DNA of 20,321 bases from a virus: IMG/VR virus record IMGVR_UViG_3300017991_000456, positions 1 through 20,321 of that record, one strand, 5' to 3'. A program made the position numbers and the translations under genes. Below are positions 1 to 19,893 of the stretch, piece after piece; the first letter of the stretch is position 1; every line of letters starts with the position of its first letter. The notes beneath the pieces were generated by a model. That model saw only the letters and a list, made by a program, of their open reading frames with translations, was not told the DNA's origin and searched no databases.

Positions 1-1486
1 ACGATCCGCCGTCGCGGATGGCCAGCATTTCGACGCCCAAATACCATCCGGCAGAATAGAAAGTCGAAGTCGCCATCGTAATCGGCGCGTCGAACGCTTG
101 GATGTCGCTAGACAGGACGATCGGGAAAGATTCCCCCAAGACATTTGTGGTCGTTCCGTCGGACGCAATCAAGCGCATGATGACCGATATTTCAGCGCCG
201 CCCAGGCCGACCGCGTTCGCGTAAAAATGCCCGTTGTAAACGCCGGCCGACGCGGATCCGTCGATTTGATTCGTGTAATACCAGGGGCCCAGGACGTTCG
301 TCCCGACCGCCAGGACCGTCGCCGATGTCCAGACCGTCGCCGGATTTATGTCGACCATCGAATTGCCGGCCAGTGACGGATGATCGTTCGTGTCGCCGAA
401 AAGAATTTGGCCGTACGCGCTTGCCAGCATATCGGCGACTTTTCCGAACGTGACCGCTTCGTCATCGTCAAACAGGACGTTCGTCGACGTGCGAATCATT
501 TTTTCAACAGATACGACCTGGCCGGTGTTCAGCGTATTGACTTCCCAAATAAATGACGTACTGCCAGGATCGAAGCGCCCGATCTTCACGCCGCCCATAT
601 AGATCGACGACGTCGAAAGGAAGATGTCCGCACAATGGACTTCCGAAAACGGCCTGGCCGCGGATCCCCATTTGACGGTATTCGATCCGCCGGGGATCCC
701 GTCGACGAAAACGTGGAAATTGTCATTCGACCAGGCGACGACTTTTCCGCCGCCGGCGACCAGTTCCCGGGCTAGTAAACTGATTCCGGTTTCGTTCGTA
801 TTGACGTAATAGTACCCGTTATAGAAATCGGCCAGGGGACCGACGTACGTACCAGGATCGTCGGCATACAGGACGCCGTTCGAAAAGATGAACGCCGGGG
901 ATCCCGGGCCGACTTCGACGCGGAACCAGGACATCTCGACGATCGGATTCGTTCCCATTTTAAGGCCGGCCAGCATCCCCAGCGTTCCGTCGCGGCGAAG
1001 ATAGTCAAGCGGGATCGGCGGAACGCCGGACGGCGCGGTCCCAGGGGAAAGATCGATTTCGATGGATCCGTGATTCCATTCAAGAATCCCCATATCCGGC
1101 GACGCCAGAATCAGTTGTCCCCAAAGATTTCCGTTCGTAACTAGGGTGTTTGTTTGCGCGTAGTCGACATCGATGAACGCCCGGCCGTTCGTCGTGATAG
1201 CCCAGTTCGTCGAAGATTGCCCGATCGACCATCCGGACGTAATCGATTCGGAATAATAGACGGTTCCGGTTACATTGTTTAGGTTCGTCCAGGCGGCGCC
1301 ATCCCAAAGGGTATAAAAACGGATCCGCGGCGTCGTTCCCATAGCGAAACCGAACGCAAATTCCCGTTGGCGGTGTAACGCGTCGACGTTGATGGGAATA
1401 TGCGGTTTCGCGTCGGGATCATAGCCCAGGGCCGGCGCCGCCAGGAAAAGCGCCGCCAGGATCGCGAGAATCGAACGTCGGATCAT
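1..1486 (-). CDS. Exported distal tail/surface protein with BppU-like N-terminal module (partial, 3' end off window)
   Basis: The frame is open from the ATG at 1484-1486 to the window edge, giving 495 codons with no stop, so the C-terminus is missing. Residues 1-21 look like a classical signal peptide: an Arg-Arg start, a Leu/Ala-rich core and an A-P-A-L-G end. Residues about 40-142 form a beta-rich module resembling the N-terminal domain of siphophage baseplate upper proteins (BppU). It shares spaced motifs (GTT-RI-F, L-NVT, VDV, GQL-L, GS) with the small exported protein at 13240-13701. The rest is Thr/Asn/Gly/Trp-rich beta sequence like tail fibres or adhesins. The start is supported by the Shine-Dalgarno sequence inside the 31-bp repeat just upstream. 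As the last gene seen after the tape measure, it probably builds the tail tip or host-binding surface (inference). No enzymatic motif was recognised. Confidence 0.75.
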   Translation of the reverse strand, partial: MIRRSILAILAALFLAAPALGYDPDAKPHIPINVDALHRQREFAFGFAMGTTPRIRFYTLWDGAAWTNLNNVTGTVYYSESITSGWSIGQSSTNWAITTNGRAFIDVDYAQTNTLVTNGNLWGQLILASPDMGILEWNHGSIEIDLSPGTAPSGVPPIPLDYLRRDGTLGMLAGLKMGTNPIVEMSWFRVEVGPGSPAFIFSNGVLYADDPGTYVGPLADFYNGYYYVNTNETGISLLARELVAGGGKVVAWSNDNFHVFVDGIPGGSNTVKWGSAARPFSEVHCADIFLSTSSIYMGGVKIGRFDPGSTSFIWEVNTLNTGQVVSVEKMIRTSTNVLFDDDEAVTFGKVADMLASAYGQILFGDTNDHPSLAGNSMVDINPATVWTSATVLAVGTNVLGPWYYTNQIDGSASAGVYNGHFYANAVGLGGAEISVIMRLIASDGTTTNVLGESFPIVLSSDIQAFDAPITMATSTFYSAGWYLGVEMLAIRDGGS

Positions 1487-1490
1487 TGTA

Positions 1491-1521
1491 TCCCCTTTCA
1501 TCATAGGCCAGAAAATCCGCC
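1491..1521 (-). repeat. 31-bp intergenic repeat, copy 1, carrying the ribosome-binding site
   Basis: This stretch is identical over 31 bases to 8725-8755. Both copies lie exactly between a stop codon and the next ATG. On the minus strand each ends in GATGAAAGGGGA, a strong Shine-Dalgarno sequence, about five bases before the start codon. It fills nearly the whole gap between the 761-residue gene and the exported protein that follows. A diverged relative (GGCCT...AAAGGGGAAC) precedes the portal gene. Confidence 0.9.
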
Positions 1522-1522
1522 T

Positions 1523-3808
1523 TCAGTCGTCGAAATTCCATTCGTGAATACAGATCGGAACGCCGTAATTGATATACAAATACCATTCGCCAGTTGTTCC
1601 GTTGTAAGGGACGACGGGCGAAACGACGAATCCGGAATAGTTGAATTCGGGAAGATACGCCGGCCCGTCGACGGTCCCGAAAACGCGATACCTGGTCGGT
1701 TTCATGTCGATCGCCGGGAATCCGGATCCTGTCACGCGCATTTCGGCCAGGTTGTTCGTATTTTTGTCGTTCAGGGTTTCCAGGACGCCAGGGAAACAGA
1801 ACGTGACGCGTTCGGCCTGGTATTCTTCGTTGATCCCCCGAACGGACGATTGCGCGACATCGATCCTGGCGCCGTGATGCCTGGCCGCCCTGGCCGCTTG
1901 TTTATAGGCTTCGCGATATGTGATCGAAGAACCAGTGATGACCGCATGACCATATGAAAGCGGGGAATCCGCGGATCCGATCGCGGCAATGTAAATAGGC
2001 CCTGGCCATTGCCCGGCCTGGTATTTGACAACGCCGGAAATCGACCAGGGAATGACCTGGACGCCGTATCCCGGGACCGTGACGGATCCCTTGTTCGTCG
2101 AAAGGGGACCATCCATCGGCAATCCAGCGACTTCCCAGTCCCGGGTAACGGGAACGGACCAGGTATTCGTGACCGTGAAATTGCCCGAAAAAGAAATGTT
2201 CCAGGACCAGGACCAGGCCAGGCCGGCGTCATTTGTGACGTTCAGCGTTCTTTTCCAGTCGTTCGAATAAACCAAAGACCAGGGCGTCGGTTCCGGCGAC
2301 GATCGAAGGCGCGCATATGGTCCGGCCGGGGAATCCGAAATCTTCGCCCAGTTTGTTGTGACATCCGCCCAGGACCATCCTTCGCCTTCCCAGGTTCCGA
2401 CGTTCGATCCCAGGTTCGTTTCGACAACGCCGGCGCGCCAGGTGTTCGATCCCAGGGCCGTAACGGCGACATCCCGTTCCAGCATCATGTCAGACAAAAG
2501 CCATACGCCATCGCGCGCGGGATCCAGACCGATCGCGGATCCATCATATCGCGGGATCATTCGCTTCCAGACCTGGATGACATCGCCGACGTTGTTCGTC
2601 GAATTGCCGGCGTCCGTCAGGACGGCGAAGTTCGTCAGTTTTTGATATGGCGAAACGGGAACGGATCCGGTTACGACGACCGTTTCGAAATAGTTCGAAG
2701 TCGGGCCGATGTCCCCTTCCGTATATTCGCGCCAGGATCCGCCGATCGTGACCTGGTAATGGTCCGGCGCCGGCGCGTTTGTGTCGCCGGAAACGGCCTG
2801 GATCCGAACGTCGCCGGGATCGTTGTACCAGGAAAAGAATTCAGCGTCGCCGGCAAAACCGATCGGCCCGGCCCAAACGTTCGTCGACCAGGCGTTCGTA
2901 TATGTCACAACGCCGACCGCATCCGTCGAAACCGCGCGCCGGCCCAGGCGCGCTTCCGCGATCAGAACGCGGTTCGTCCCTGGCCGGATAGTGAAATATC
3001 CGTCGCGCGTGAAATCGCCGGATCCAGCCTGGTTCGTCATCCATTCCGGAGTATGATTTATTAGTTCTCCCCAGTACGCCGGGCCGCGATAGTAGTTCGT
3101 CGCGAATCCGAATTCTTCGTCGATACATATTTTCGCCAGGGACATTTCCGGCGGCGCTTGCGGGAAATTCGTTTCGCCGGCGGGATCGACGTATTCCCGT
3201 TGGAACCAGGTGTCGACGTCGATCCCTGGTTGAACGAAAAAATTCGCGGCCGATCGTTCGCTTGCGGAATCGTCGAAAGAATACCATAGGCAATAATCGA
3301 CGATCCGGAACGTCGCGAAGGGGACGTCCTGGAAATGGCACACTTCGACGCCGGACGATCCGCCGGCCGAATACGAATAATTCGTTGACCATAGCAACGG
3401 CGCCAGGGGATTCGTGACGCCGGCGTTCGGGACGCGCGTCATGTTCCAGTAATAGGACACGTTCGTCGTGATCGGTTTCTTCACGATGAACGGATAAATG
3501 TTCGTGACGCCGTCGACGATGCCGGTGACGGAAATCGAAATGTTCGTGACGCCGCCGTACGCGTCGGCCGAAATGACGCCGGCGATACGCGGAGTATCGC
3601 GTTCCCCGCGGGAAACGTTATACCGTTGCGCCGCGCGCCAGATCAGGTTCGAAAACGGATCAGGATCCGCCTGGCGCATAAGATGAAACGTCGGATAGTT
3701 TGACCAGGCCGTGAAGGGTTCCGTCCCCTGGGCGCCATCCTGGGCCGTCAGAAACGCGATCAGGGCCAGGACTATAACGCCGTGCCGATATGGATGTCGT
3801 GTTCCCAT
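1523..3808 (-). CDS. Large exported virion-operon protein, 761 aa, function unknown
   Basis: The N-terminus has charged residues, then a hydrophobic run (VIVLALIAFLTA, about residues 11-22) and an A-Q-G site near 27, which together look like a cleavable signal peptide. The mature protein is rich in Thr-Asn pairs, Trp, Tyr, Gly and Ser, with alternating hydrophobic residues, as in beta-sandwich adhesins or tail-spike stalks. No catalytic motif, lysozyme signature or repeat unit was recognised. The gene overlaps the preceding one by 37 bases and has no clear Shine-Dalgarno site, so translation may be coupled. The signal peptide supports this start over the later Met in MRQADPDPF. Its place after the tape measure suggests a tail-tip, fibre or host-surface role. 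An exported adhesin or exclusion protein expressed with the late genes is an alternative. The coding frame is certain; the function is not. Confidence 0.8.
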   Translation of the reverse strand: MGTRHPYRHGVIVLALIAFLTAQDGAQGTEPFTAWSNYPTFHLMRQADPDPFSNLIWRAAQRYNVSRGERDTPRIAGVISADAYGGVTNISISVTGIVDGVTNIYPFIVKKPITTNVSYYWNMTRVPNAGVTNPLAPLLWSTNYSYSAGGSSGVEVCHFQDVPFATFRIVDYCLWYSFDDSASERSAANFFVQPGIDVDTWFQREYVDPAGETNFPQAPPEMSLAKICIDEEFGFATNYYRGPAYWGELINHTPEWMTNQAGSGDFTRDGYFTIRPGTNRVLIAEARLGRRAVSTDAVGVVTYTNAWSTNVWAGPIGFAGDAEFFSWYNDPGDVRIQAVSGDTNAPAPDHYQVTIGGSWREYTEGDIGPTSNYFETVVVTGSVPVSPYQKLTNFAVLTDAGNSTNNVGDVIQVWKRMIPRYDGSAIGLDPARDGVWLLSDMMLERDVAVTALGSNTWRAGVVETNLGSNVGTWEGEGWSWADVTTNWAKISDSPAGPYARLRSSPEPTPWSLVYSNDWKRTLNVTNDAGLAWSWSWNISFSGNFTVTNTWSVPVTRDWEVAGLPMDGPLSTNKGSVTVPGYGVQVIPWSISGVVKYQAGQWPGPIYIAAIGSADSPLSYGHAVITGSSITYREAYKQAARAARHHGARIDVAQSSVRGINEEYQAERVTFCFPGVLETLNDKNTNNLAEMRVTGSGFPAIDMKPTRYRVFGTVDGPAYLPEFNYSGFVVSPVVPYNGTTGEWYLYINYGVPICIHEWNFDD

Positions 3809-4314
3809 AGTCGAAAAATCGGGACATGGTTGTCATTGTCGGGATCGAATTGCCAGGCGAACAAGGGCCAGCGCATGAACGTGTCGTCATCGTGCGGGAT
3901 GTCGTCGGGCCAGACCGCGACTTCCTGTAAATTGATCCCGCGTTCGGAATAGTCATGCCATTTCATCCAGGCCTGGGCGACCAGGTACGGGCCGCCATCC
4001 AGTTCGACGTCGTCGGCGGCGGTAACCGGTTCGACCCATAACGCTTCCCGGCCGGCGATATGAATAAATCCGCCGGCAACGATCAGTTTGTCGTTCGAAT
4101 AGGTCGTCCGGAACGTGACGGGCGTCGAAATATCGGCGTCCGCGATACGGGAAACGACCAGGCCGTTTTCGTTCAACGCGACGCGGATCCCGCGTTCCCC
4201 CCTGGCGCCGTTCAAAAGGCGGCCGATCAGATTCAGATCCCGGGCCGACGGCCGATCGCCAGGCTGATAATTTGTTTTGAATCGGTGCGAAATTCCGCGT
4301 AATCGGCTTGTCAT
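3772..4314 (-). CDS. Distal tail-region protein, unknown, 180 aa
   Basis: This is a soluble protein without signal peptide or membrane segment. The first 40 residues are basic and helical (SARDLNLIGRLLNGARGERG), followed by a beta-rich, acidic, Trp-rich body. It begins three bases after the preceding gene's stop, with a GGGGGAT Shine-Dalgarno-like stretch overlapping that stop. Its 3' end overlaps the next gene by 37 bases. The tight packing after the tape measure marks it as part of the tail module, perhaps a tip or fibre-attachment protein. I do not recognise a family. Codon choice (CTG-GCC, GTC-GAC, ATC-GCG) matches its neighbours. Confidence 0.7.
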   Translation of the reverse strand: MTSRLRGISHRFKTNYQPGDRPSARDLNLIGRLLNGARGERGIRVALNENGLVVSRIADADISTPVTFRTTYSNDKLIVAGGFIHIAGREALWVEPVTAADDVELDGGPYLVAQAWMKWHDYSERGINLQEVAVWPDDIPHDDDTFMRWPLFAWQFDPDNDNHVPIFRLWEHDIHIGTAL

Positions 4315-4317
4315 GGA

Positions 4318-4695
4318 TTATCCCCCAGGCCCGTCGTTGCCTTGCCAGTGATCGGGCGCCAGGATCCATTCGTCATACAGTTCCCAGGTTTGGCGCCGGC
4401 GGACGTATCCAGTTTGTCCGCCGCCTTCCGGCGTGTCCCCGTCGGCGACGCAAATATATTTGGGCGAATCGGCGTCGATCCCGATGGACCCCTTGAAAAC
4501 GGTTCGATCGCCGACCTTGTAAGAAAGGACGGCCCGTTCATGACCGACCTGGGAAGGGAAGGAATTCGCGAGTTCGTGACGCCATATTACGACGACCCAG
4601 TGACTTCGATAGAACACTTTTTGTTCGCCATCTACTTCGAATTCTTCGACGTCCAGGTTATCGGAAACAGAATCTTCGGTCCATTGATATGACAT
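4318..4695 (-). CDS. Minor tail-region protein, unknown, 125 aa
   Basis: This small acidic protein is mostly beta-strand in character and has many aromatic residues (YRSHWVVVIWRHE near residues 29-41; WELYDEWILAPDHW near the C-terminus). There is no signal peptide or membrane segment. The start follows a clear GGGGGAA Shine-Dalgarno sequence, with the ATG ten bases past the tape-measure stop. The gene is followed almost immediately by the next one. Its position directly after the tape measure is where distal tail or tail-tip adaptor proteins sit in siphophages, but it is shorter than a typical Dit protein and no family motif was recognised. Confidence 0.7.
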   Translation of the reverse strand: MSYQWTEDSVSDNLDVEEFEVDGEQKVFYRSHWVVVIWRHELANSFPSQVGHERAVLSYKVGDRTVFKGSIGIDADSPKYICVADGDTPEGGGQTGYVRRRQTWELYDEWILAPDHWQGNDGPGG

Positions 4696-4705
4696 GGTTC
4701 CCCCG

Positions 4706-6895
4706 TCAGTCGGTAACGCCGCCTTCTTTGCCGGCTATTTCTTCCAGCCACTTTTCCATTCGCGCATTATGGTCATTTATACTTTTGAGCGTATCCAGGC
4801 GCGGGTCTTTGTCCGCCGGCGTTCCCGCGATCCGATCGAAAACATCCTCGATCCCTAGTTGCGTCCGCTTTTCTTCGTCGGCCGCCTGGCGTAATCCGAC
4901 AATCTTTTCGAATTCCGCCTGGATCTGTTCAGCCAGTTTAAGCCGCTTTTCCGGATCATCTTCCTTTTCGACATCGCGCTCCATTTCGGCCAGGCGTTTT
5001 TCGCGATCTTTCAATTCCTGGGCCGGCTTCAGTTGTGTAACGCGGAATTCCTGGACGCGTTCTTCCAGTTTTTCCGCGCGTTTCGCGCGATCCTTCTGTT
5101 CGCGTTCTTCTTTCTTGCGCGCCTGTTCGCGTAGTTTGGGGATCAAATCTTCGACGGCCTTGACAAAGTCCGCAAGTCCCGACGCCGTATCTTCGTCGTA
5201 TTTTTCCGATCGTCGAATCTGGTCGATCGCTTCCTGGCCGAATTCCTTTTCGCTGAGGCGCGCCAGTTTGTCGATCGCTTCCTTCCGCGTTTTCGCTTCC
5301 GCGGCCGCCAGGGCCGCCGCTTCCGCGGCCGCCTGGGCCGCCTGTTCTTCCGCCGCGATTCGTTCCTCTTCCGCCGCGATCAGGGCGTCGACTACGTCCA
5401 AATACGCCGCGTATTTTTCCGCGGTCATTTCGGCGATCGCATCGATTGAAATTCCCAGTTTGCCGGCGGCCTGTTTCATGACCGTCGCCAGGTCCAGGCC
5501 TTCCATTTCTTGAATCTGGCGGCCGATCGCCTTTTCACGTTCGGCGTTCTGTTCCGCCAGTGTCGGTTTCAATTCTTCCGCCAGGGCCGCGAATCCCTTG
5601 AGGGCATCCTGTATTTGTTCGTCGGCCGTTCGCCGGCCGCCCGTTTCTTCGTTGAATTGTTGTCCGACGCGTTCGCGTTCCTGGCGAAGTCGTTCGGATC
5701 GAAGTCGTTCCTGTTCCGCTTTCATTTCTTCGCGGAACATCCGGAATTCTTCCTTCAGTGACATCGGCGCTTCGCCGGTCGATTCGCGTCGTTCTTTTTC
5801 GCGCTTGACGGTCATCGTCGCCAGGTCCGCCGCGACCATAGTTTCGCCTGGCGTAGTCGCAAGGGCCGTTGCGCCCTTCAGAATCAGGGATCCAATCATC
5901 GGCGCGGCCTTCAGTAATAGATCGACCGCGATTTCGGCGCCCTTGCGGAACGCGCCGACGACCAGGTCTTTTAAATGGATCAGCGCCTTTTGACGGACGC
6001 CGCCGTCAGTTGCCAGGGCTTTGCCGATCGTGACGGCCGTTTCCAGGACGGATTTCGCGCGTTCGGCCCAGTCTTTCAACGTTCCATCGGAGCGAAGGCG
6101 TTGCAGCCATCCGATCAGCGATTTAATCGCATCCTTCGCCTTTTCGACGAACACGTCGCCGAAATCGCGCATCGCCAGGTTCAGGTTGTCTTTCAGCGTC
6201 GAAACCAGGCCTTCGCCCGTTTCGGAAAGTTCCTGCATCCCGCCTTCGAATCCTTCCAGGGCGCGCCGCAGGACTCCCCAAATTTGGGCGTTCGACGCGC
6301 CGGCCTTTTGCAACCGTTCCAGTTCGGCGCGCGCTTCGCCGGTCAGAAGTCCCATTTCTTGCAGTCGTTGCGCCGCTTCCCCGAACGGTTGTCCGGCCTT
6401 TATGGCCGTGTATGCCCGGCCGACCCACATAGCGACTTCCTGGATATCCCGGCCGGCGGCCGCGGCCGCATCGCCGACCAATTTCAGACCGGCCTCGGTG
6501 TTCAGTACGCCGCCGGTGAATACTTCCAGCAACCGGGACGCATCGGCGATCCCTTCCAGTTGAAACGGTGTTCTGGCGGAAAAATCCGCCAGGGCTTCCA
6601 TATGTTCCCGGGCGCGTTGGAGATCTTTGAACAAGACTTTGAATTGCGTCGTGATCGCTTCGAACCGGAACGCGGTCTGGATCGTTTTCCATAGGGCCGC
6701 CGCGGCGCCGGCGACGCCGGCGGCCATAGCAACGAATCCCATTTTGACGACAGACAAGGCGCGGCCCAGGCCGCGGAACGCCGCCCGGGCGCCGCCGGCG
6801 ATACGTGCCAGGCCGGCCATTTCGCGCTTTGCGGCCGCGACGCCCTTCCCGACCAGGTTACGGGCAAAGATCAGAAATGAAAGTTTCGGCGCCAT
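4706..6895 (-). CDS. Tail tape measure protein
   Basis: This 729-residue protein sets tail length and is threaded inside the tail tube. The N-terminus is basic and Ala/Gly-rich with a hydrophobic segment at about residues 47-72 (VVKMGFVAMAAGVAGAAAALW). A region typical of tape measures follows (RFEAITTQFKVLFKD...REHMEALADFSARTPFQLEGIADASRLLEVF), with small-residue helices after it. From about residue 370 to 690 it is a long Glu/Lys/Arg/Ala heptad-rich coiled coil. It is the longest minus-strand tail gene apart from the 761-residue one. It directly follows the probable assembly chaperone, joined by a TAATG overlap that indicates coupled translation. Using the rough rule of 0.15 nm per residue for tape measures, the tail would be about 110 nm (inference). 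Confidence 0.93.
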   Translation of the reverse strand: MAPKLSFLIFARNLVGKGVAAAKREMAGLARIAGGARAAFRGLGRALSVVKMGFVAMAAGVAGAAAALWKTIQTAFRFEAITTQFKVLFKDLQRAREHMEALADFSARTPFQLEGIADASRLLEVFTGGVLNTEAGLKLVGDAAAAAGRDIQEVAMWVGRAYTAIKAGQPFGEAAQRLQEMGLLTGEARAELERLQKAGASNAQIWGVLRRALEGFEGGMQELSETGEGLVSTLKDNLNLAMRDFGDVFVEKAKDAIKSLIGWLQRLRSDGTLKDWAERAKSVLETAVTIGKALATDGGVRQKALIHLKDLVVGAFRKGAEIAVDLLLKAAPMIGSLILKGATALATTPGETMVAADLATMTVKREKERRESTGEAPMSLKEEFRMFREEMKAEQERLRSERLRQERERVGQQFNEETGGRRTADEQIQDALKGFAALAEELKPTLAEQNAEREKAIGRQIQEMEGLDLATVMKQAAGKLGISIDAIAEMTAEKYAAYLDVVDALIAAEEERIAAEEQAAQAAAEAAALAAAEAKTRKEAIDKLARLSEKEFGQEAIDQIRRSEKYDEDTASGLADFVKAVEDLIPKLREQARKKEEREQKDRAKRAEKLEERVQEFRVTQLKPAQELKDREKRLAEMERDVEKEDDPEKRLKLAEQIQAEFEKIVGLRQAADEEKRTQLGIEDVFDRIAGTPADKDPRLDTLKSINDHNARMEKWLEEIAGKEGGVTD

Positions 6896-9732: not shown

Positions 9733-10056
9733 TCAACGCGGACGGCGCGTGACGTCGGCCAGGATGGCCGCCAGCATGACCTGAAGGGCGATACCCTTCG
9801 AACGGACGTTCGTTCGTCCTGGGCGATCCTGGCGCGCTTTTCGGATCGATCGCCAGGCCCGATTCTTTATCAGTTCGAATCGAAAGTGTCCGAACCGGCG
9901 AATTATGGCCTGGTTCACGGCCGGCCAGTCGATCGTTCCGCCCGATTCGACGAACGCCAGGGCGTATAATGCGGCCAGAACGCGCGTCCTGGGCCGGCGT
10001 TTCAGGCCGCAAATACGGATGATTTCGGCCGCATTTCTGTTTTCATCCGTTTTCAT
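9733..10056 (-). CDS. Small basic protein, unknown, between MuF locus and tail genes
   Basis: This 107-residue, strongly basic, helical protein has many Arg residues and no signal peptide. The segment RVLAALYALAFVESGGTIDWPAVNQAIIRRFG (about residues 25-56) could be a helix-turn-helix-like fold, but no family was recognised. Codon choice (frequent CTG-GCC, CTG-GCG, ATC) is like that of neighbouring genes, which supports coding. The start has no clear Shine-Dalgarno site; a TTGACG at about 10088-10093 hints at a promoter but its -10 is poor. It is the first minus-strand gene after the 193-base gap that follows the plus-strand gene. It could be a tail/head completion accessory or part of the inserted MuF cargo. 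Confidence 0.6.
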   Translation of the reverse strand: MKTDENRNAAEIIRICGLKRRPRTRVLAALYALAFVESGGTIDWPAVNQAIIRRFGHFRFELIKNRAWRSIRKARQDRPGRTNVRSKGIALQVMLAAILADVTRRPR

Positions 10057-10150
10057 GTCGAAAAATGTTGCATATTACGCGCGGGTCGTCAATAATGTTT
10101 TCGGTTGGCCGGGGATCGAACCCGAATGGGAAGCGAGTGGTTGACCAGGC

Positions 10151-10166
10151 GCCGGCGCGCGCCGGC
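10151..10166. repeat. Perfect 16-bp GC palindrome
   Basis: The sequence gccggcgcgcgccggc equals its own reverse complement. It sits upstream of the plus-strand gene and could be an operator or a hairpin. The 23 bases at 10143-10165 also occur exactly at 12695-12717 inside the head-tail adaptor gene, so part of this may be recurrent GC-rich sequence rather than a dedicated site. Confidence 0.5.
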
Positions 10167-10212
10167 AGAAATTGCGCGCTTGGCCGCCGCAACGGACAAG
10201 GCTGTTAGTCGG

Positions 10213-10241
10213 TATGATCCCCAGGTCGCCTTCAGAAAGGA
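10213..10241 (+). promoter_or_regulatory. -10-like box and Shine-Dalgarno for the plus-strand gene
   Basis: TATGAT at 10213-10218 matches five of six bases of a sigma-70 type -10 box. No good -35 is seen 16-18 bases upstream. AAAGGA at 10236-10241 is a strong Shine-Dalgarno sequence eight bases before the ATG at 10250. It fixes that start rather than the upstream in-frame ATG at 10172. Together they suggest the gene can be expressed independently of the late operon. Confidence 0.45.
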
Positions 10242-10249
10242 CGGGCTCC

Positions 10250-10519
10250 ATGTCAATCAAATACTACTTCCGCGTTGGCGATACCGGGGACACAATGGAA
10301 CGCCCTGGCGGGATCTATCGCGAAACGGATGATGAATCCGGCCTTCGCTATGAATTCTTGAACGCGCGCGGCGAATGGGAAGTCGACATGGATCTGTATC
10401 GTCATTTCGGCGGCCCTGATTTCACGGCGGACGTGATCCCAGTCAGTTTGAAACAGGCCGAAAAGGCGATCGCTGACTGGGCCAAACGGTTCCGCGTTCC
10501 CAGGGCGCCGGCGTCCTAG
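10250..10519 (+). CDS. Small acidic plus-strand protein; candidate immunity/antitoxin for the MuF toxin
   Basis: This is the only plus-strand gene I accept. It encodes 89 residues beginning MSIKYYFRVGDTGD, then GIYRETDDESGLRYEFLNARGEW and EVDMDLYRHFGGPDF, ending with a helix containing SLKQAEKAIADWAKRF. The layout (a YYFRV strand, a Gly/Arg turn, a WE-D..L segment, then an 'I....EAE..I' helix) resembles small proteins often found beside toxin genes in actinobacteria; this likeness is from memory. The start is set by AAAGGA eight bases upstream. It converges on the MuF gene: both stop codons use the palindromic CTAG at 10516-10519. Lying directly beside the toxin-like C-terminus and being transcribed apart from the late operon fits a lysogen- or early-expressed immunity protein (inference). 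Confidence 0.75.
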   Translation: MSIKYYFRVGDTGDTMERPGGIYRETDDESGLRYEFLNARGEWEVDMDLYRHFGGPDFTADVIPVSLKQAEKAIADWAKRFRVPRAPAS

Positions 10520-12423
10520 CGATCGCGCCGGCGATCTTCCGCGGCAAGTTGCCTTTCGATCCTTTTCGTTTCCGCATCCAGGCGCGCCGTTTCTTCACGG
10601 ATCCGGCGTTCCTGTTCCCGTTCTTCGCGGAATTGCGCTTCCGCTTCCGCCAGTTCGTCGCGAAGGCGTTCGTTTCGCCGTTCCGCTTCCGCCAGTTCTT
10701 TCTTCCGGAGTTCGTTTTCCCGGCGAAGGCGATCCAGGTTTTCTTTTGTCGGTCCCAGGCGCGGTTGTTTTGCGATCGCGCGTTGCCGGCCCAGGGTTCC
10801 GCGTTTCGTAATCCGATTGGCGCCTGGCGGCGTCGGAACGGTCGCCCAGGCATCGATATTTTGCTGTTTCCATCGGGCGGCCGCGGCGGCCTGTTTCGGA
10901 TCGTTCGGATCGACCAGGCGGATCTTTTCGTACAAGGGGTGCGCGTATTTTTCTTTCACGGCGATCCCGCGCGGTGTATGAAATTGCAGTTCGACCTTTA
11001 TGCCGTCCGGACGGCGCCAGACCGTATTTATCCCCTTGTATTTTTCTTCCGTCCAGGCGTTCCGGAATTTGGTCGTTCCGTCGTCGGCCTGGACCTGGCG
11101 ATATCCAAGGGCGCGTAACTGTTTCGACGTATTGATGACGCCATCCGTGTATTTGTCATCCGGCATGACCATCGTATATCGAAGGGAATCATGAACGTTT
11201 TTCTTGTCGATCGCGTCCAGCGGCCAGGATGGATTCGATTTGATTTCCGCGGCGATCTTCCTGGTCGTGGACCCTTCTTCCTTTACCGCATATCGGACTT
11301 TCCCGGTTTCCGGATTCAGGCCGACCAGTTCGGCATCGTTCGCTTCCGCCAGGGCGGCCATTGTCGCCGATTGGTCATCTTCGACGGCCCTGGCCCGGCG
11401 GACAATCTTTTTCGCCTTCCTGGCGACGGCCGGCCGTTCCAGGGCCGCGGACAAAGTTGTCTTGTCGCCAGGCGCCGGCGACGCCGCCTGAAAATCGGTC
11501 TTGTATTTCGCGACCTGTTCGCGATCGGACCAGTCGACGTTCGGTTGCGCCGCCTGGCGATCGATGTCGTTCATGTGGATCGTTTCGTCCATCCGCCGGA
11601 TGAAACAATCGCAGTTCGGATGAAACATCCCGGCGTCGAGGGCGGCCTGATACGACGGGAATCGCTTGTCCTTTCCGGAAATCGAAATTATCAGGCCGAT
11701 CCAGGCATCGCATATTTCGCAGGATTCGCCGGACGGGACGATCCGGACCAGGTCATCGCCGTTTCCGATGATCGTGTCCATGTATGATTCCCGGGAAACG
11801 CGCGCCGACGTCGTCCTGGTCAGCATCCGGATATAGTCGCGGTTCGACCATTTGCGGCCGCGCGCATCGATGAACCGATGACTGTCGATATTGCCGGCGA
11901 TCTTGTCCCAGGACGTTTGAAGTTCTTTCTGGATCTGGTTCCTGGTCAGGCCTTCGACGGATCCGCGTCGAAAAACTTCGACGGTCGCCTGGCGCAAGGC
12001 CGCGATATCCGTTTCCGCCATCTTTTTCGTGAAAACCGCGGCCAGGTGTTCGGTCTGGTCCGGATGGATCATCCGGAAATATCGTTCGGTCCGACGGCGA
12101 TCGTATTTGATGATCGAAGGATTGACCTTTCGGCCCTGGCGCCTGGTTTCGAAGATCGCGCGGCGATGCCAGTCGATCGCCGTCCGTTCGGTCATTTCCC
12201 GGCCCCAGCGGTCCAGTTCGGCGCCGGTCAGTTGATAGTGACTGTGGACCTGGTTGAAAAAGTGATCGCGGAAACGTTGCCGGCGTAGATTGTTTGCGTC
12301 CTGGGCGGCGGCGTGGATCTTGTCCGCCAGGGCGGCCCGGGATTTCTGGATCAGGCGTTCGACTTCGCGTTGCGCGACGCGTTGTTGTTGGCGAAGTTTC
12401 CGGATAGATCCCGGGTTCGGCAT
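10516..12423 (-). CDS. MuF-type minor head protein with C-terminal RelA/SpoT-like domain
   Basis: This 635-residue multidomain protein is a minor capsid component probably packaged in the head. Residues about 1-180 are helical and charged. Residues 190-277 match the phage minor capsid protein 2/MuF signature: NRDYIRMLTRTTSARVSRESY, then C235xxC238, then FHPNCDC with H268, C271 and C273, a likely metal site. Residues about 376-502 resemble RelA/SpoT synthetases: an R/K-rich lead-in, D412-S-L-R415, KYKGIN (461-466, the 'GYrSxH' region), VELQFHT (477-483, with E478 and H482) and H495. A coiled coil rich in Arg/Glu fills 558-632. The added domain is cargo-like, as in MuF polymorphic toxins, so the protein may be delivered with DNA and attack cell physiology by making (p)ppGpp, (p)ppApp or by tRNA pyrophosphorylation. 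It starts one base after the previous stop. Confidence 0.85.
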   Translation of the reverse strand: MPNPGSIRKLRQQQRVAQREVERLIQKSRAALADKIHAAAQDANNLRRQRFRDHFFNQVHSHYQLTGAELDRWGREMTERTAIDWHRRAIFETRRQGRKVNPSIIKYDRRRTERYFRMIHPDQTEHLAAVFTKKMAETDIAALRQATVEVFRRGSVEGLTRNQIQKELQTSWDKIAGNIDSHRFIDARGRKWSNRDYIRMLTRTTSARVSRESYMDTIIGNGDDLVRIVPSGESCEICDAWIGLIISISGKDKRFPSYQAALDAGMFHPNCDCFIRRMDETIHMNDIDRQAAQPNVDWSDREQVAKYKTDFQAASPAPGDKTTLSAALERPAVARKAKKIVRRARAVEDDQSATMAALAEANDAELVGLNPETGKVRYAVKEEGSTTRKIAAEIKSNPSWPLDAIDKKNVHDSLRYTMVMPDDKYTDGVINTSKQLRALGYRQVQADDGTTKFRNAWTEEKYKGINTVWRRPDGIKVELQFHTPRGIAVKEKYAHPLYEKIRLVDPNDPKQAAAAARWKQQNIDAWATVPTPPGANRITKRGTLGRQRAIAKQPRLGPTKENLDRLRRENELRKKELAEAERRNERLRDELAEAEAQFREEREQERRIREETARLDAETKRIERQLAAEDRRRDR

Positions 12424-12424
12424 A

Positions 12425-12826
12425 TCAGCATCCCCGGCATAGGCGGACCGACGCGGCGGCGGGCCCTTCGAACAACCATCCGCGGACTTCGTCGGGGATC
12501 CCGACGGACTGGCCTTCCGCGACGCCGTCCGGACAATCCGGATCGCCCAGGATCCATTTCGGCGTTGTCTTGTCGCCGGACGCTATGAAACCGCATCGGA
12601 TCAGATACAGGGCATATTCGAACGCGGCCGCATCTTCGCGCGGGAAGTCGGTTTCGGTCGTCGTCGTTTCGTCCAGTTCCCGGCCCAGTAAACGGACCAG
12701 GCGCCGGCGCGCGCCGGTGACGGCGGCCTGACGCTTGTCCTCGTCGTCGACGCCCAGCCAAATATCAGAAAATTCGTGAGAATCGGCGGCGAAATAGATA
12801 TCGGCGCCAGCGCGATCGATTGCCAT
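12425..12826 (-). CDS. Probable head-tail adaptor (connector)
   Basis: The 133-residue protein has a helical N-terminal half: an acidic DSHEFSDIWLGVDDEDKRQAAVTGARRRLVRLLG stretch (about residues 15-48), then TDFPREDAAAFEYALYLI (about 59-76). This pattern of 'D...kk.Al..Atr.id...' followed by a 'PR' element and a long helix is typical of small head-tail connector proteins sometimes labelled DnaT-like. The C-terminus has three Cys residues, including CRGC at the end, which is unusual and might bind metal. The start follows AAAGGGATTCCACA, a good Shine-Dalgarno spacing. The gene lies just downstream of a strong terminator-like hairpin. Function is inferred from fold pattern and place. Confidence 0.55.
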   Translation of the reverse strand: MAIDRAGADIYFAADSHEFSDIWLGVDDEDKRQAAVTGARRRLVRLLGRELDETTTTETDFPREDAAAFEYALYLIRCGFIASGDKTTPKWILGDPDCPDGVAEGQSVGIPDEVRGWLFEGPAAASVRLCRGC

Positions 12827-12844
12827 TGTGGAATCCCTTTCAGC

Positions 12845-12887
12845 AAAACGGCCGCGTCCCCAGTGACGGACGACGCGGCCGCGGTTT
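12845..12887 (-). terminator. Terminator-like hairpin, possibly bidirectional
   Basis: A perfect 10-bp GC-rich stem (12849-12858 with 12872-12881) encloses a 13-base loop. Minus-strand RNA would leave the hairpin into UUUU (12845-12848). Plus-strand RNA would reach GG then UUUU (12884-12887). The four-base U tract is short, so it may only attenuate. It divides the SAP-like head gene from the downstream connector gene. Confidence 0.5.
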
Positions 12888-12900
12888 TAATTCGATTCGG

Positions 12901-13179
12901 CTATTCGGTATCCGCGTCGCCTTCGGTATCCGCGTCGCCTTCCAGGGCGGCGATGATATCGGCCTTCGTCGCGTTCGAAGGAAGTTCCAGTCCCTTTTCT
13001 TCCGCCAGGGCCAGAAGTTCGGCCTTGTTCTTCGACGACAAGGGCGCCGGCGCGGCGTCCGGATCCGCGGGACCGTCGCAAACTTTCCAGTCGTCCGCCT
13101 TATAGAAATCGACCTTGTCCGCGTCGACTTTTATTACGGCGGATTCTTTCTTCATGAACACTGTTTCGCATATCGCCAT
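12901..13179 (-). CDS. Small head-region protein with SAP/HeH-like C-terminus
   Basis: The 92-residue protein has two parts. The N-terminus (MAICETVFMKKESAVIKVDADKVDFYKADDWKVCDG) resembles short phage structural proteins of the 'F..k..A.i.v.....dfy...W' kind. The C-terminus (residues about 47-80, LSSKNKAELLALAEEKGLEL and KADIIAALEG) is a helix-extension-helix, SAP or LEM-like motif used for nucleic acid or protein binding and often found in small phage head genes. The last 12 residues are two copies of GDADTE, produced by an 18-bp tandem DNA repeat at 12904-12939. It has a strong AGGGGAAAGTC leader before ATG. It is probably a head fibre, head-completion or DNA-binding accessory. Confidence 0.6.
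   Translation of the reverse strand: MAICETVFMKKESAVIKVDADKVDFYKADDWKVCDGPADPDAAPAPLSSKNKAELLALAEEKGLELPSNATKADIIAALEGDADTEGDADTE
12904..12942. repeat. 18-bp tandem repeat (2.2 copies)
   Basis: 12904-12921 and 12922-12939 are identical and are followed by TTC, the first three bases of a third unit. The repeat keeps the reading frame and encodes the duplicated GDADTE tail of the SAP-like protein. The tract is a likely slippage site that changes the length of the acidic tail. Confidence 0.9.
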
Positions 13180-13207
13180 GACTTTCCCCTTTCTTCAGGT
13201 TTGGATA

Positions 13208-13228
13208 CTAGACAACGTTGTCGGGCAT
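13208..13228 (-). CDS. Seven-codon minigene or leader peptide (MPDNVV)
   Basis: The ATG at 13226-13228 opens a frame of six sense codons ending in TAG. It is preceded by a strong Shine-Dalgarno sequence (AAAGGGAATCATC). The start and its leader (19 bp) are identical to those of the probable tail tube gene at 8338, which also begins MPD. The ORF contains a perfect 12-bp palindrome at 13211-13222. It may be a regulatory minigene or a leftover start of a lost gene. Expression is unproven. Confidence 0.3.
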   Translation of the reverse strand: MPDNVV

Positions 13229-13238
13229 GATGATTCCC
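13220..13238. repeat. 19-bp translation-start repeat, copy at the minigene
   Basis: This is identical to 8330-8348. It provides the start codon and part of the Shine-Dalgarno sequence of the seven-codon ORF at 13208-13228. Confidence 0.85.
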
Positions 13239-13239
13239 T

Positions 13240-13701
13240 TTACTGCAAAGGCGTTTGCCTGGCAAGGGATCCCTGGGGATAAATATACACGACGCCGCCG
13301 TCGTTCGTCCCGGTCAGTTGTAATTGCCCGATCAGGGATCCAGTGATGTTCGTAAGATATGGGATGCCGACGTCGACGTATCCCTGGCCGGCCGTTGCGT
13401 TCGTGACCGTCGGGACATACGGGACGTTCGTCGACGCGGTCCCCAGGCGGAATTCCAGGGTGACGTTCGTCAGGTCTTGCGTTACGACGCCGTCGTCATC
13501 CGAAAAACACTGGAATTCGATCCGAAGGGTAGTCCCCTCAAAAAAGGCGCGGGTATTGAATAGCGGCGCGGATCCGCGGTTGAAATCGACATCGAATTCT
13601 TCCGGATCGACATCGGCGGCGGAAACGGAGTAAAGGCCCAGGATCGCGACGATGGATATCAGGGCCCCGACAATGGGTAAGGGTATTGACCATCTTTTCA
13701 T
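13240..13701 (-). CDS. Small exported protein with BppU-like module
   Basis: The 153-residue protein starts with a clear signal peptide or signal anchor: MKR, a hydrophobic stretch (residues 5-24) and an S-V-S-A cleavage-like site near residue 28. The mature part, residues about 51-147, is beta-rich with motifs GTTLRIEF, LTNVTLEF, GYVDV, LIGQLQL and GSL. It matches in order the module in the exported protein at 1-1486, and resembles BppU N-terminal domains. The start follows AGGAAGGAAGAAAA. It lies between the coat gene and head-completion genes, unusual for an exported protein. Possible roles are head decoration after export, host-envelope exclusion, or a misplaced tail module. It has one Cys (residue 65). 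Confidence 0.7.
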   Translation of the reverse strand: MKRWSIPLPIVGALISIVAILGLYSVSAADVDPEEFDVDFNRGSAPLFNTRAFFEGTTLRIEFQCFSDDDGVVTQDLTNVTLEFRLGTASTNVPYVPTVTNATAGQGYVDVGIPYLTNITGSLIGQLQLTGTNDGGVVYIYPQGSLARQTPLQ

Positions 13702-13802: not shown

Positions 13803-13820
13803 TCCAGGGCTATCCCTGGA
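13803..13820 (-). other. Hairpin over the coat protein stop codon
   Basis: A perfect 7-bp stem (TCCAGGG/CCCTGGA) with a four-base loop ATAG contains the TAG stop of the coat gene in the loop and stem edge. It could protect the highly used coat mRNA 3' end. The words CCAGG/CCTGG are frequent here, so chance is possible. Confidence 0.4.
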
Positions 13821-14937
13821 AAATCACGCCGCCGTTCGGCTGAATTACTTCGCATCCGCAATAGACATCATAAACGATCGAATCCGACAGGGATACGGTC
13901 GACGATGACATCGAAACACGGATACTAATGCCCTTATATCCTTCGACCGCGGACCCCATGTTCAGCGGGGACGGTGCGACGATCGCGCCAGCGACCGAAT
14001 TCGGGTGATAGAGAACATCGGCCTGGAGTGCGGACTTGAACGTTACCGCGGCATCGTTGCCGGCGATGACTAGGGCGGCCGATACGGCCGGATATATCGG
14101 GATATCGCCTTCGTTCGACGCAAGTGTCAGATCCGCGGTGACGGTATAAACTTGCGTGTCGCCGGCGACAGTGAATCGCGTTCCCTTCTTTACGGTTCCG
14201 GCGGCCGCGGTGAATCCATCCAAGTGAACGGTAGTCGCCGCCAGGACCGGAACGCCGTCGGTCAGGACGGTTCCGGCGATGTCGCCGCGGTCATGTTCGG
14301 ACCCGTTCGGATCCGCGAACCAGTCGAATCCCAGGCGCCGCGGGAGATTGCCTTCGCGAAGTCCCAGGGGACCATCGCCGCCGAAATCGGCGTCCGAAAA
14401 CATGGTCAGTTGCAAGAACGACGCTTCCGCGGTTGTATCGATCAGGGCCAGGCGGCCGTTCTTCACGACTTTGTTGTCCTGAAGAATCTTGCGGCCGGCT
14501 ACGATATGCGCCTTCGTCGACGGATCGGTTCCTTCCGTTCCTGATACATTCCGCGCGAAACCGCGAACCATTGTATCGACGAAATACGTGTCGATCGCGT
14601 CCAGAATCGCGTCCATCGCCGGGATCGTGACCAGGCGCGTGAAACCGTCCAGTTCCAGCGACTTTTGCTTGGTTGTCAGGTCGACGCGAACGTCGAAGTG
14701 ATGTTCCAGGGTCAGATCGACTTCTGTTTCGGTGACATCCTGGGCGTTCGTCGAACCGGTGAATTCTTCCGCCGTGAAGGTTCCCGGGACCGTCACTTTC
14801 ACGGTATCCCCGACCTTGTTGGCCTGAAGAATTTTTTCCTTTTCGCGGGAAACCATGTTCCCGGTCATAAGGCGATCATGAAGGACGATAGCGGCGTCCC
14901 TGGCGACTAGCGTCGGAGTGATGAATGTATTTGCCAT
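13810..14937 (-). CDS. Major capsid (coat) protein, P22 coat-like
   Basis: The 375-residue protein forms the head shell. The N-terminus (MANTFITPTLVARDAAIVLHDRLMTGNMVSRE) and the following VGDTVKVTVPGTF, TEVDLTLEHHFDVRVDLTTKQKSLELDGFTRLVTIPAMDAI and IDTYFVDTMV stretches are the pattern of the P22 gp5-type coat family, an HK97-fold protein. The C-terminal part is beta-rich with VSMSSSTVSLSDSIVYDVYCGCEVIQPNGGVIF. The start at 14937 is chosen because it follows GGGAGAAAAAGTC, a good Shine-Dalgarno site, and the family begins MAN. An open frame extends to 15156 but would overlap the scaffold gene by 194 bases in another frame. Order portal-scaffold-coat supports the assignment. Confidence 0.9.
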   Translation of the reverse strand: MANTFITPTLVARDAAIVLHDRLMTGNMVSREKEKILQANKVGDTVKVTVPGTFTAEEFTGSTNAQDVTETEVDLTLEHHFDVRVDLTTKQKSLELDGFTRLVTIPAMDAILDAIDTYFVDTMVRGFARNVSGTEGTDPSTKAHIVAGRKILQDNKVVKNGRLALIDTTAEASFLQLTMFSDADFGGDGPLGLREGNLPRRLGFDWFADPNGSEHDRGDIAGTVLTDGVPVLAATTVHLDGFTAAAGTVKKGTRFTVAGDTQVYTVTADLTLASNEGDIPIYPAVSAALVIAGNDAAVTFKSALQADVLYHPNSVAGAIVAPSPLNMGSAVEGYKGISIRVSMSSSTVSLSDSIVYDVYCGCEVIQPNGGVIFQG

Positions 14938-17290: not shown

Positions 17291-18817
17291 TCAGCGCGCG
17301 AAGATCGCGTCCGGATCCTGGGCCGCGATCCTTTTACCGCGGCCAGGCAACGCGATACCATCTTTTTCCCTGGTAAAAAAGTCGAACACAATCGCCGCGG
17401 CGTCGGGCGGATCGTCGTGATCCCCGTCGGGAAATTCGCGGAACGTTTGGACGAATAGGTCGTTCCAGGGCGCGCGGACCAGGTGGACGCCGCCGGCTTC
17501 CATGACCGGTTCGACGGGCGCCAGTTTCGCGGACTTGTCCCCTGGTAGATTCGCCTTCGAAACGGACCGGACGCCCTTCAGGGTTCGTTTCAATTCGACA
17601 TAGGTATCCTTATATGCGCCGAACGCTTCGACTACGACCTGGACGGCCTGGCCATCTTTCTTCGTAGTGTCTAGGATCAGTTTGTTCCGTTCGGTCGCTT
17701 CCGCGCGGACGAATACCATGTCGACGATCCATAGGTCGTGTTTGATGATCTGGAAACCGTCCCGTTCGACCGTTGTCAGGACGACGGTTCCCAGGATCCC
17801 GACGGTATAATCCGGATCATCGGAATCGCGTTCCTTCGCCGACGACGCCAGATCCCAGGCGCGGATATACTTCCCTTTTGGAATTTCCTTCAGGTCGTGA
17901 TACTGGATCCGGTCGACCAGGAAACGGTTCCCGCCTTCGACGACCGGCGAACAGTCCAGCAACGCGGCCGAAAGGGATCCCTGGGCGGCGTACTGTTCGC
18001 GATACCAGGAATCGGGGAACCGTTCGGGGAACAGGAAAGCGCCGGATTCGGGATCCTTCGCGGGGAATTTCAGGATCCGGAATTTCGGGAAATCCTTGTT
18101 CTTTTCGCGTTCCTTTTTGATCCGGCCGCGGATGTCGTCTACGTGCCAGGGCGTCGCGCAAATAATCACGATCGATACAGGGGCCCGGCGGGAAAGGACA
18201 TCTTGGAACGCCGACCAGGTAGTCTTTCGATACTTTTTCGATCGCGCTTCCGCGCGGCTTTTGCAGTAATCGTCGACGATTATCAGATCGCCGCCTTTGC
18301 CGACCAGGGATCCGCCAAGGCCGGTCGCCGTGACCCGGCCAGTTCCGCCGGCGATCTTCCAGGACTGTATGGAATTGTCGCCGCGCGGGATCGCGACGTC
18401 GGGAAACAGTTCGTGGTACTTCGTCGATTTGATGATCGTTTTCGCATCCCGGGAAAACTGTTCGACCAGGTCGGCGCCATATCCCGACATGATGACATCG
18501 GGATCCAGACCGGCCGCCTGGCAACGGCCCAGGAAATAAGGCGGAAGGGCGCGCGATACCAGGTCGGATTTTCCGTGTCGGAACGGAACGACGATATCCA
18601 GGTTCGTCGATTTGCCGGCCAGGTAGTCGTCGATCGCTTTGTCGATCGCGTCGCATATCGCGCGGGTATGCTGGCCGACCAGGAATGGCCAGGGCTTCCA
18701 GAACACGAAACGGACGAATTCCAGGAATGATGACCTAGCCCCGCGTCGGAGCGCCAGTCTATCCTTCGCCGCCAGGATCGCTTTCCGCCGCGGCGACAAA
18801 GGCTTCGATTTCGTCAT
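17291..18817 (-). CDS. terL: Terminase large subunit
   Basis: This 508-residue packaging motor cuts and pumps phage DNA into the head. ATPase motifs: VVPFRHGKSD at 76-85 (Walker A), DLIIVDD at 177-183 (Walker B) and ICATPWH at 219-225 (coupling motif). RNase H-like nuclease residues: D322 in AWDLASS, E397 in VVEAFG, and D472 in the HDDPPDA stretch (467-473). All three acidic positions are kept, so the enzyme looks active. The length is normal. The start overlaps the small subunit by 59 bases, suggesting coupled translation. Gene order terS-terL-portal is standard. Confidence 0.96.
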   Translation of the reverse strand: MTKSKPLSPRRKAILAAKDRLALRRGARSSFLEFVRFVFWKPWPFLVGQHTRAICDAIDKAIDDYLAGKSTNLDIVVPFRHGKSDLVSRALPPYFLGRCQAAGLDPDVIMSGYGADLVEQFSRDAKTIIKSTKYHELFPDVAIPRGDNSIQSWKIAGGTGRVTATGLGGSLVGKGGDLIIVDDYCKSRAEARSKKYRKTTWSAFQDVLSRRAPVSIVIICATPWHVDDIRGRIKKEREKNKDFPKFRILKFPAKDPESGAFLFPERFPDSWYREQYAAQGSLSAALLDCSPVVEGGNRFLVDRIQYHDLKEIPKGKYIRAWDLASSAKERDSDDPDYTVGILGTVVLTTVERDGFQIIKHDLWIVDMVFVRAEATERNKLILDTTKKDGQAVQVVVEAFGAYKDTYVELKRTLKGVRSVSKANLPGDKSAKLAPVEPVMEAGGVHLVRAPWNDLFVQTFREFPDGDHDDPPDAAAIVFDFFTREKDGIALPGRGKRIAAQDPDAIFAR

Positions 18818-19346
18818 CGGTCATTTCGTCCAGGTGTTTCTTCAGGTCCAGGGCGATCCGTTTCGGCGCTTGCCATCCCTTCATTTTTGCCAGGGCGACG
18901 ATCGCGTCCCGTTGATCGTGAAGTTCTAGCGTCGTGATGATCGCGCCGACGTCCCCCGTCGGATTGTAGATCGTTTTCGAGGTGACCTTTTTGATCGCTT
19001 CCGGATTCGGAAGTTCGTCGTTCAGGGCGATATGCCAAACTCCGTCCAGGTTCGCTTCCAGGTAGTCGGTCAGTTTCCCGCGCGCCTGGCGCGTCAGGAT
19101 TTCTTCCGCTTCCTGGCGTTCCATGATGGCGCCCTGGGCGACGGCGGCCTTCAGTTCGTCGATCCTGGCCTGGACGTCGGGCCGGTTTTCGATCTTGTGG
19201 GCGTTCGTTTTGGCGTTCTGGCGCTTCCGTCCGGCGTTCGCTTTTTTCCCGCCATAACCGGCGGCCAGGTAGGCTTCGACGGTAGTTTCGCCCTTGAATC
19301 GGGCGACGGCGTACTGTTCATGACGCGGATTCTTTAACGGTGGCAT
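18759..19346 (-). CDS. terS: Terminase small subunit
   Basis: The 195-residue protein recognises phage DNA and loads the large subunit. It has the terminase small subunit (Terminase_2-like) pattern: HEQYAVARFKGETTVEAYLAAGY at 9-31, a basic KKANAGRKRQNAKTNAHKI segment, RPDVQARIDELKAAV at about 55-69 and an oligomerisation part, MERQEAEEILTRQARGKLTDYLE. The C-terminus (KKHLDEMTDDEIEAFVAAAE) is an acidic helix likely to touch TerL. Its start overlaps the end of the upstream gene by 29 bases, and its end overlaps terL by 59 bases, so the three form one translational unit. Confidence 0.9.
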   Translation of the reverse strand: MPPLKNPRHEQYAVARFKGETTVEAYLAAGYGGKKANAGRKRQNAKTNAHKIENRPDVQARIDELKAAVAQGAIMERQEAEEILTRQARGKLTDYLEANLDGVWHIALNDELPNPEAIKKVTSKTIYNPTGDVGAIITTLELHDQRDAIVALAKMKGWQAPKRIALDLKKHLDEMTDDEIEAFVAAAESDPGGEG

Positions 19347-19893
19347 GGTTCATCCCCCTTCGCCGGCCGACGGCGGCGCGTTGTTTCGTCGGCATTGTCC
19401 GCTTTCTACCATAGGCCGGTTTTTCCGCTTCTTGAGATGACCAGGACCAGGATTTCATCGCGATCGCGTACGCCAGGGCCGGCCAGTTCCGGCGCGCTTT
19501 CTTCAGGCGATTATGCGCCGATGACGTCGAAATCCCGATACGTTCGGCGACAATTCGAAGGGGACGGTCGGGATACGCCAGGCGATCCAGGACGATTTCC
19601 CTGGTCCGCGGTGATAGGGCCAGGATTTGTTTAGCGAGAAACGCCATCCCTTCGACAACCGGATCCGCGGCCGGATCGTGGACGACGGCCGGATCCCCGT
19701 TGAAATCGAAAACGCGATCGACGTCCAGTTCCGCTTCCCCGGGATTCGCCGACGAAAAAATCGCGACGTGACTTCGACCGTGATGACTTCCGCTTTTCGG
19801 ATGGCATTTTGAACATGGGACTTTATCCCAGGGTGTTCGCCGATATTTCCCGGCGGCGATCGCGTCGCCGACTTCGCACTTGTGACATTCCAT
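19318..19893 (-). CDS. Zinc-knuckle protein with sigma-region-4-like HTH; candidate late regulator
   Basis: The 191-residue protein has C3xxC6 and C27xxC30, a probable zinc ribbon, in the first 30 residues. An acidic linker follows. Residues about 94-137 (LSPRTREIVLDRLAYPDRPLRIVAERIGIS, then SSAHNRLKKARRNWPAL) resemble sigma factor region 4 or LuxR-type helix-turn-helix proteins, where a recognition helix follows 'iAe.lgis...v..rl..Ar'. The C-terminus is basic. It directly precedes terS and overlaps it by 29 bases. This suggests a packaging partner or a late transcription regulator. The start is three bases past the previous stop with a weak Shine-Dalgarno match. The assignment is based on motif reading. 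Confidence 0.7.
   Translation of the reverse strand: MECHKCEVGDAIAAGKYRRTPWDKVPCSKCHPKSGSHHGRSHVAIFSSANPGEAELDVDRVFDFNGDPAVVHDPAADPVVEGMAFLAKQILALSPRTREIVLDRLAYPDRPLRIVAERIGISTSSAHNRLKKARRNWPALAYAIAMKSWSWSSQEAEKPAYGRKRTMPTKQRAAVGRRRGMNHATVKESAS

Follow-up and report, generated by a model that had tools for sequence, protein, structure and literature searches.

Predicted Sec signal peptides on candidate outer virion proteins in the late operon of a tailed-phage lineage

Three proteins encoded in one late operon of a 20.3-kb linear viral contig, the whole of which was analysed and is called the window here, begin with predicted Sec signal peptides, and the other genes of the window score far lower. 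We consider it somewhat better than even that these proteins (A, B, and C), like their counterparts in related genomes, are outer virion proteins that are made as Sec pre-proteins, exported, cleaved, and loaded on the particles at lysis. For A by itself, a role as a virion fibre with a true leader is rated above this reading as a whole.

Every gene of the window lies on the minus strand. The terminase comes first, followed by the portal, the scaffold, the P22-type capsid protein, the connector and minor head proteins, and then the tail genes and the tape measure; two small genes come next, and C and A close the series. The terminase large subunit (17291-18817, minus strand) was the query used for finding relatives. 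The major capsid protein (13813-14937, minus strand) is of the P22-coat type (PF11651, 1.1e-24; PHROG 283, 7e-56), and the tape measure protein (4706-6895, minus strand; PHROG 973, 2.4e-13) is also found in the relatives. The first-pass annotation had described two large signal-peptide proteins after the tape measure. The gene order agrees with this, but two small leaderless genes on the minus strand intervene before C: a 125-aa gene (4318-4695), with similar-sized genes at this place in relatives, and a 180-aa tail gene (3772-4314) with a homologue in the related genome G001. The number also needs revision, since in addition to A and C the window encodes a third such protein, B (13240-13701, minus strand), directly downstream of the capsid gene and before the connector; the region marked in that annotation lies 9 kb away. 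Two further features of the window were observed. The C-terminal half (10519-11460) of a minor head protein (SPP1 gp7-like; 10516-12423, minus strand) matches the SaSAS structure 8vx3 (2e-15), presumably a small alarmone synthetase, and this domain fused to a head protein is possibly an ejected enzyme. Just upstream of the terminase genes, the protein encoded at 19318-19893 (minus strand) carries a sigma-70 region 4-like motif (PF04545, 3.5e-6), and several relatives encode homologues close to their terminase.

Leaders were scored with a home-made signal-peptide scorer that considers n-region charge, the h-region, and an AxA-type site, and for which 36 proteins of E. coli and 23 of lambda served as calibration. 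By this scorer, the N-termini of A, B, and C show a positive n-region, a hydrophobic core, and an AxA-type site as in Sec/SPase I substrates. Their scores (A 11.5, C 10.7, B 10.6) are near those of OmpF (11.4), OmpA (10.9), and Lom (10.6), which bears out the earlier claim of signal peptides on A and C, whereas the remaining 19 window genes score at most 6.4 and the remaining lambda late genes at most 7.8. The predicted leaders suggest that all three proteins are Sec/SPase I substrates, which would be exported and cleaved in the host. The signal peptide of A (1430-1486, minus strand) reads MIRRSILAILAALFLAAPA-LG, with cleavage after APA or ALG; a start at 1504 is possible, and the ATG at 1486 behind AAAGGGG is more likely. 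That of B (13618-13701, minus strand) ends in GLYSVSA-ADVD and is preceded by a strong Shine-Dalgarno sequence, and that of C (3725-3808, minus strand) reads VIVLALIAFLTAQDGAQG-TEPF. An artefact, such as misassembly, inclusion of host genes, misplaced start codons, or N-termini that are hydrophobic by chance, would be most easily imagined for C, whose first 37 nt also belong to the upstream gene and which lacks a clear Shine-Dalgarno sequence. The hydrophobic core of its leader lies past the stop of the upstream gene, in DNA coding for C alone. An artefact is highly improbable: a score of 10.5 was reached by 0.04% of 33,000 random N-termini with the composition of the window, which is the chance rate per gene, strong Shine-Dalgarno sequences stand ahead of A and B, and the arrangement is repeated in several relatives, including two contigs that close on themselves in gene content (G003 and G004).

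A (1-1486, minus strand) is a tail-fibre-like protein cut by the contig end. Its domain order is leader, BppU-like docking domain (about residues 21-152), and the fibre-type repeat YLRRDGTLGMLAGLKMG (residue 162); such repeat motifs occur among A-type proteins. The docking domain, modelled from six sequences with moderate confidence (pLDDT 68, pTM 0.61), is a predicted beta-sandwich. The best solved matches of the model are the baseplate proteins of NF5, 80alpha, and TP901-1 and the neck proteins of Bas63 and Sf14, with VIA-align Z values of 9.7-11.6 against an immunoglobulin-type background of about 6.5. Foldseek gave 1e-5 to 5e-4 for the NF5, 80alpha, and TP901-1 baseplate chains, and the matches among viral models were mostly BppU, baseplate, and neck-passage proteins. 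Searches of A with sequence profiles returned no Pfam family at E values up to 1 and no relevant PHROG, and the A/B domain sequence had no match to solved structures below an E value of 0.7. Because no Pfam or PHROG profile matched, A is likened to BppU in fold and place only: the modelled docking domain resembles the BppU N-terminal domain, and membership of that family is not claimed. A-type homologues in G007 and G002 matched the "tail fiber" families PHROG 9942 and 9729 (2.6e-12 and 2.9e-8). The modelled docking domain, placed directly after the leader, supports a virion role of A. Mature B (153 aa) aligns to the docking domain of A (27%) and is a candidate head/neck decoration. C (1523-3808, minus strand), a Trp/Asn/Thr-rich protein of 761 aa, matched no family, and its structure model was set aside (pLDDT 26). 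Its position and leader make it a candidate tail-tip or fibre protein.

Searching viral contigs for direct relatives of A and C with peptide patterns and tblastn gave no hit, and phage records gave no convincing one; relatives were therefore sought through the terminase and tape measure. An initial genome scan with a two-sequence terminase alignment found no relative. Scans with the terminase and tape measure retrieved a lineage whose terminase is about 50% identical. In those relatives whose sequence covers the tail end, small leaderless genes come after the tape measure, and large leader-bearing genes come after these. The leader-bearing proteins in this place measure 856, 239, and 431 aa in G001; 947, 189, and 255 aa in G003; 548, 862, and 154 aa in G004; 402, 1554, and 553 aa in G007; and 989 and 129 aa in L088. 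Across the window, these five genomes, and L100, a leader is present on 11 of 12 post-tape-measure proteins longer than 400 aa, compared with 1 of 184 core late genes, a comparison designed post hoc whose P value is merely illustrative. The lone core gene above the threshold, the terminase of L028, was taken as a false positive. Homologues of A retain the leader despite differing leader sequences, as in G001, where it reads MKRLLHAIAILMIAGSGHA-Q. The C-type proteins of the relatives gave no BLAST match among themselves; their pairing relies on gene position, the leader, and a short motif at the C-terminus, and homology is not claimed for them. A small leader protein near the capsid gene recurs in many members, and signal-peptide proteins stand at or near the position of B in L015, L018, L020, L022, L085, L087, L088, and L099.

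Members of the terminase clade were found on contigs from bins of Lentisphaerae, Lentisphaeria, Kiritimatiellae, and Verrucomicrobia, as well as in one alphaproteobacterial bin. The hosts of the group appear to be mainly Lentisphaerae and Verrucomicrobia, and the host of the window itself presumably belongs there too. The alphaproteobacterial bin, that of L098 (JAGVSR010000171.1), is perhaps a binning error. In L103, L104, and L105, the terminase match around 10001-11536 is limited to residues 23-307, and the nuclease half appears to have been replaced or to have strongly diverged.

Virion proteins normally remain in the cytoplasm, and on this ground the hydrophobic N-terminus might be a retained helix, serving as a trimer plug, docking element, or membrane-inserting tip, and not an export signal. 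L100 offers a further point in its favour. It encodes a leaderless A-type protein (12435-13697, plus strand) whose docking domain aligns to the leader-bearing one of L088 and in which a similar, signal-like segment, GATGVLALALLATTAQG-IPFDE, is internal, behind the docking domain. Against a retained helix stand the positive n-region, AxA-type site, and SPase I-typical length in 31 diverged examples, as well as the leaders on small head-module proteins, which are unlikely to contact membranes. Among the 31 leaders, alanine occupies position -1 in 30 and position -3 in 21; since the scorer itself prefers such sites, this preference supports SPase I cleavage sites and is no proof by itself. We thus regard a retained helix as quite unlikely, including the tail-tip membrane-insertion helix that the first-pass annotation had named as an option.

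Under the favoured reading of export followed by loading from outside, A and probably C would dock at the tail end as fibres or adhesins, and B would be a small decoration of the head or neck. The pre-proteins would be exported by Sec to the periplasm, where the leader would be cleaved off and the protein would fold. Lysis would then mix the compartments and allow the adhesins to attach to particles assembled in the cytoplasm, so that the last assembly step would take place outside it. The P22 tailspike can attach to finished particles in vitro, which makes such a late outside step feasible. Export is not indispensable, because the docking domain of L100 is leaderless, and this counts against the favoured reading, as do the moderate confidence of the docking model and the lack of any fold or family match for C. 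Assembly outside the inner membrane, one of the options raised earlier, is the one we prefer; the leaders appear genuine, and the export, cleavage, and loading are steps that we infer. Both the docking fold and the leaders would also fit a gene with two fates, in which the majority of copies would leave the cell interior to act as decoys or receptor blockers, while a minority would escape Sec and be built into virions in the cytoplasm. We consider this very unlikely, as no alternative leaderless start with a good Shine-Dalgarno sequence was seen near the starts of A and B.

If export and outside loading are correct, they call into question the rule that places the completion of tailed phages in the cytoplasm. 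There is also a warning for annotators: a signal peptide used as a sign of a bacterial, non-virion protein would misfile these fibres. The risk arises because signal peptides serve as an argument for bacterial origin, their absence having been taken as backing phage origin (PMC6199706).

Among known systems, an independent precedent is the Cellulophaga phage phi10:1 (L111). Its gp091-094 (41847-47391), downstream of a tape measure-like gene, are four tail proteins with signal peptides, namely tail-fibre and pectate-lyase proteins, and are annotated in the record as structural proteins detected by MS/MS. Counterparts occur in phi19:3, phi13:2, phi46:3, and Ingeline, where the leaders recur by sequence. 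As in our lineage, these are large adhesins, encoded either behind the tape measure or within the tail-fibre block, and almost every one has a Sec leader. The phi10:1 group differs in having Bacteroidota hosts, and a relation to A, B, and C by sequence is not claimed. The leaders and MS/MS annotation of the phi10:1 proteins indicate that a leader does not bar a protein from the virion, so the premise of the first-pass annotation that virion proteins lack export signals describes the usual case but is not absolute. In phi4:1 and phi14:2, related pectate-lyase (depolymerase) domains lack a leader and are likewise MS/MS-annotated, and one kind of adhesin thus occurs both ways. A wider reading is that tailed phages of PVC and Bacteroidota hosts include a class whose virions are finished outside the cytoplasm, by means of adhesins and head/neck decorations that Sec exports and that are cleaved, fold in the periplasm, and join the particles at lysis; this falls slightly short of an even chance in our estimate.

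In lambda, HK97, TP901-1, B40-8, SSP002, and T1, high scores were found on Lom, a moron, lysis and membrane proteins, Cor, a short tail-assembly chaperone, and small unknowns, and on no large fibre. Small signal-peptide genes near the lysis genes, such as those of Lom, Cor, and spanins, are ordinary in any phage, which counts against export and outside loading. A, B, and C might accordingly be Lom-like late-operon morons that stay outside the virion and act in the envelope in adhesion or superinfection exclusion. Lambda Lom, a signal-peptide gene just after J, is located like A and C where the late operon ends in tail-fibre genes and has a like score, and T1 exports a comparable product, Cor. 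Envelope morons of the Lom type are outer-membrane beta-barrels of about 200 aa, and Lom itself is a small barrel that sits in the host membrane (PMC12309495), whereas A carries the modelled docking fold and fibre repeats. The relatives inspected have no further large post-tape-measure gene for receptor binding, B-type proteins recur in the head module, and the phi10:1 record lists its leader-bearing tail proteins among the virion parts. We therefore hold Lom-like morons to be unlikely. A role as exclusion or adhesion factors, as had been suggested earlier, is possible for C and less likely for A and B, whose docking domain is modelled and aligned, respectively.

The exported endolysins of Gram-positive phages (fOg44, J5a clade) are likewise late-phase products with a Sec leader that are exported before lysis (PMC8878798), but they are lysis enzymes and not structural proteins. 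Two papers on Bacteroidota phages merely count signal peptides (PMC5723332, PMC4615864). The open-access literature yielded no description of leaders on tail fibres, in agreement with the first-pass annotation, to which no description of the arrangement was known. In BppU (ORF48) of the Lactococcus phage TP901-1 and other BppU-N/neck-passage-structure proteins, the fold resembles that modelled for the mature N-terminal domain of A (Z 9.7-11). BppU proteins have no leader, unlike A, and in TP901-1 just the holin and lysin score. The parts are thus known, and a virion docking domain joined to a cleavable Sec leader across a lineage would be, as far as found in the open-access literature, a new combination.
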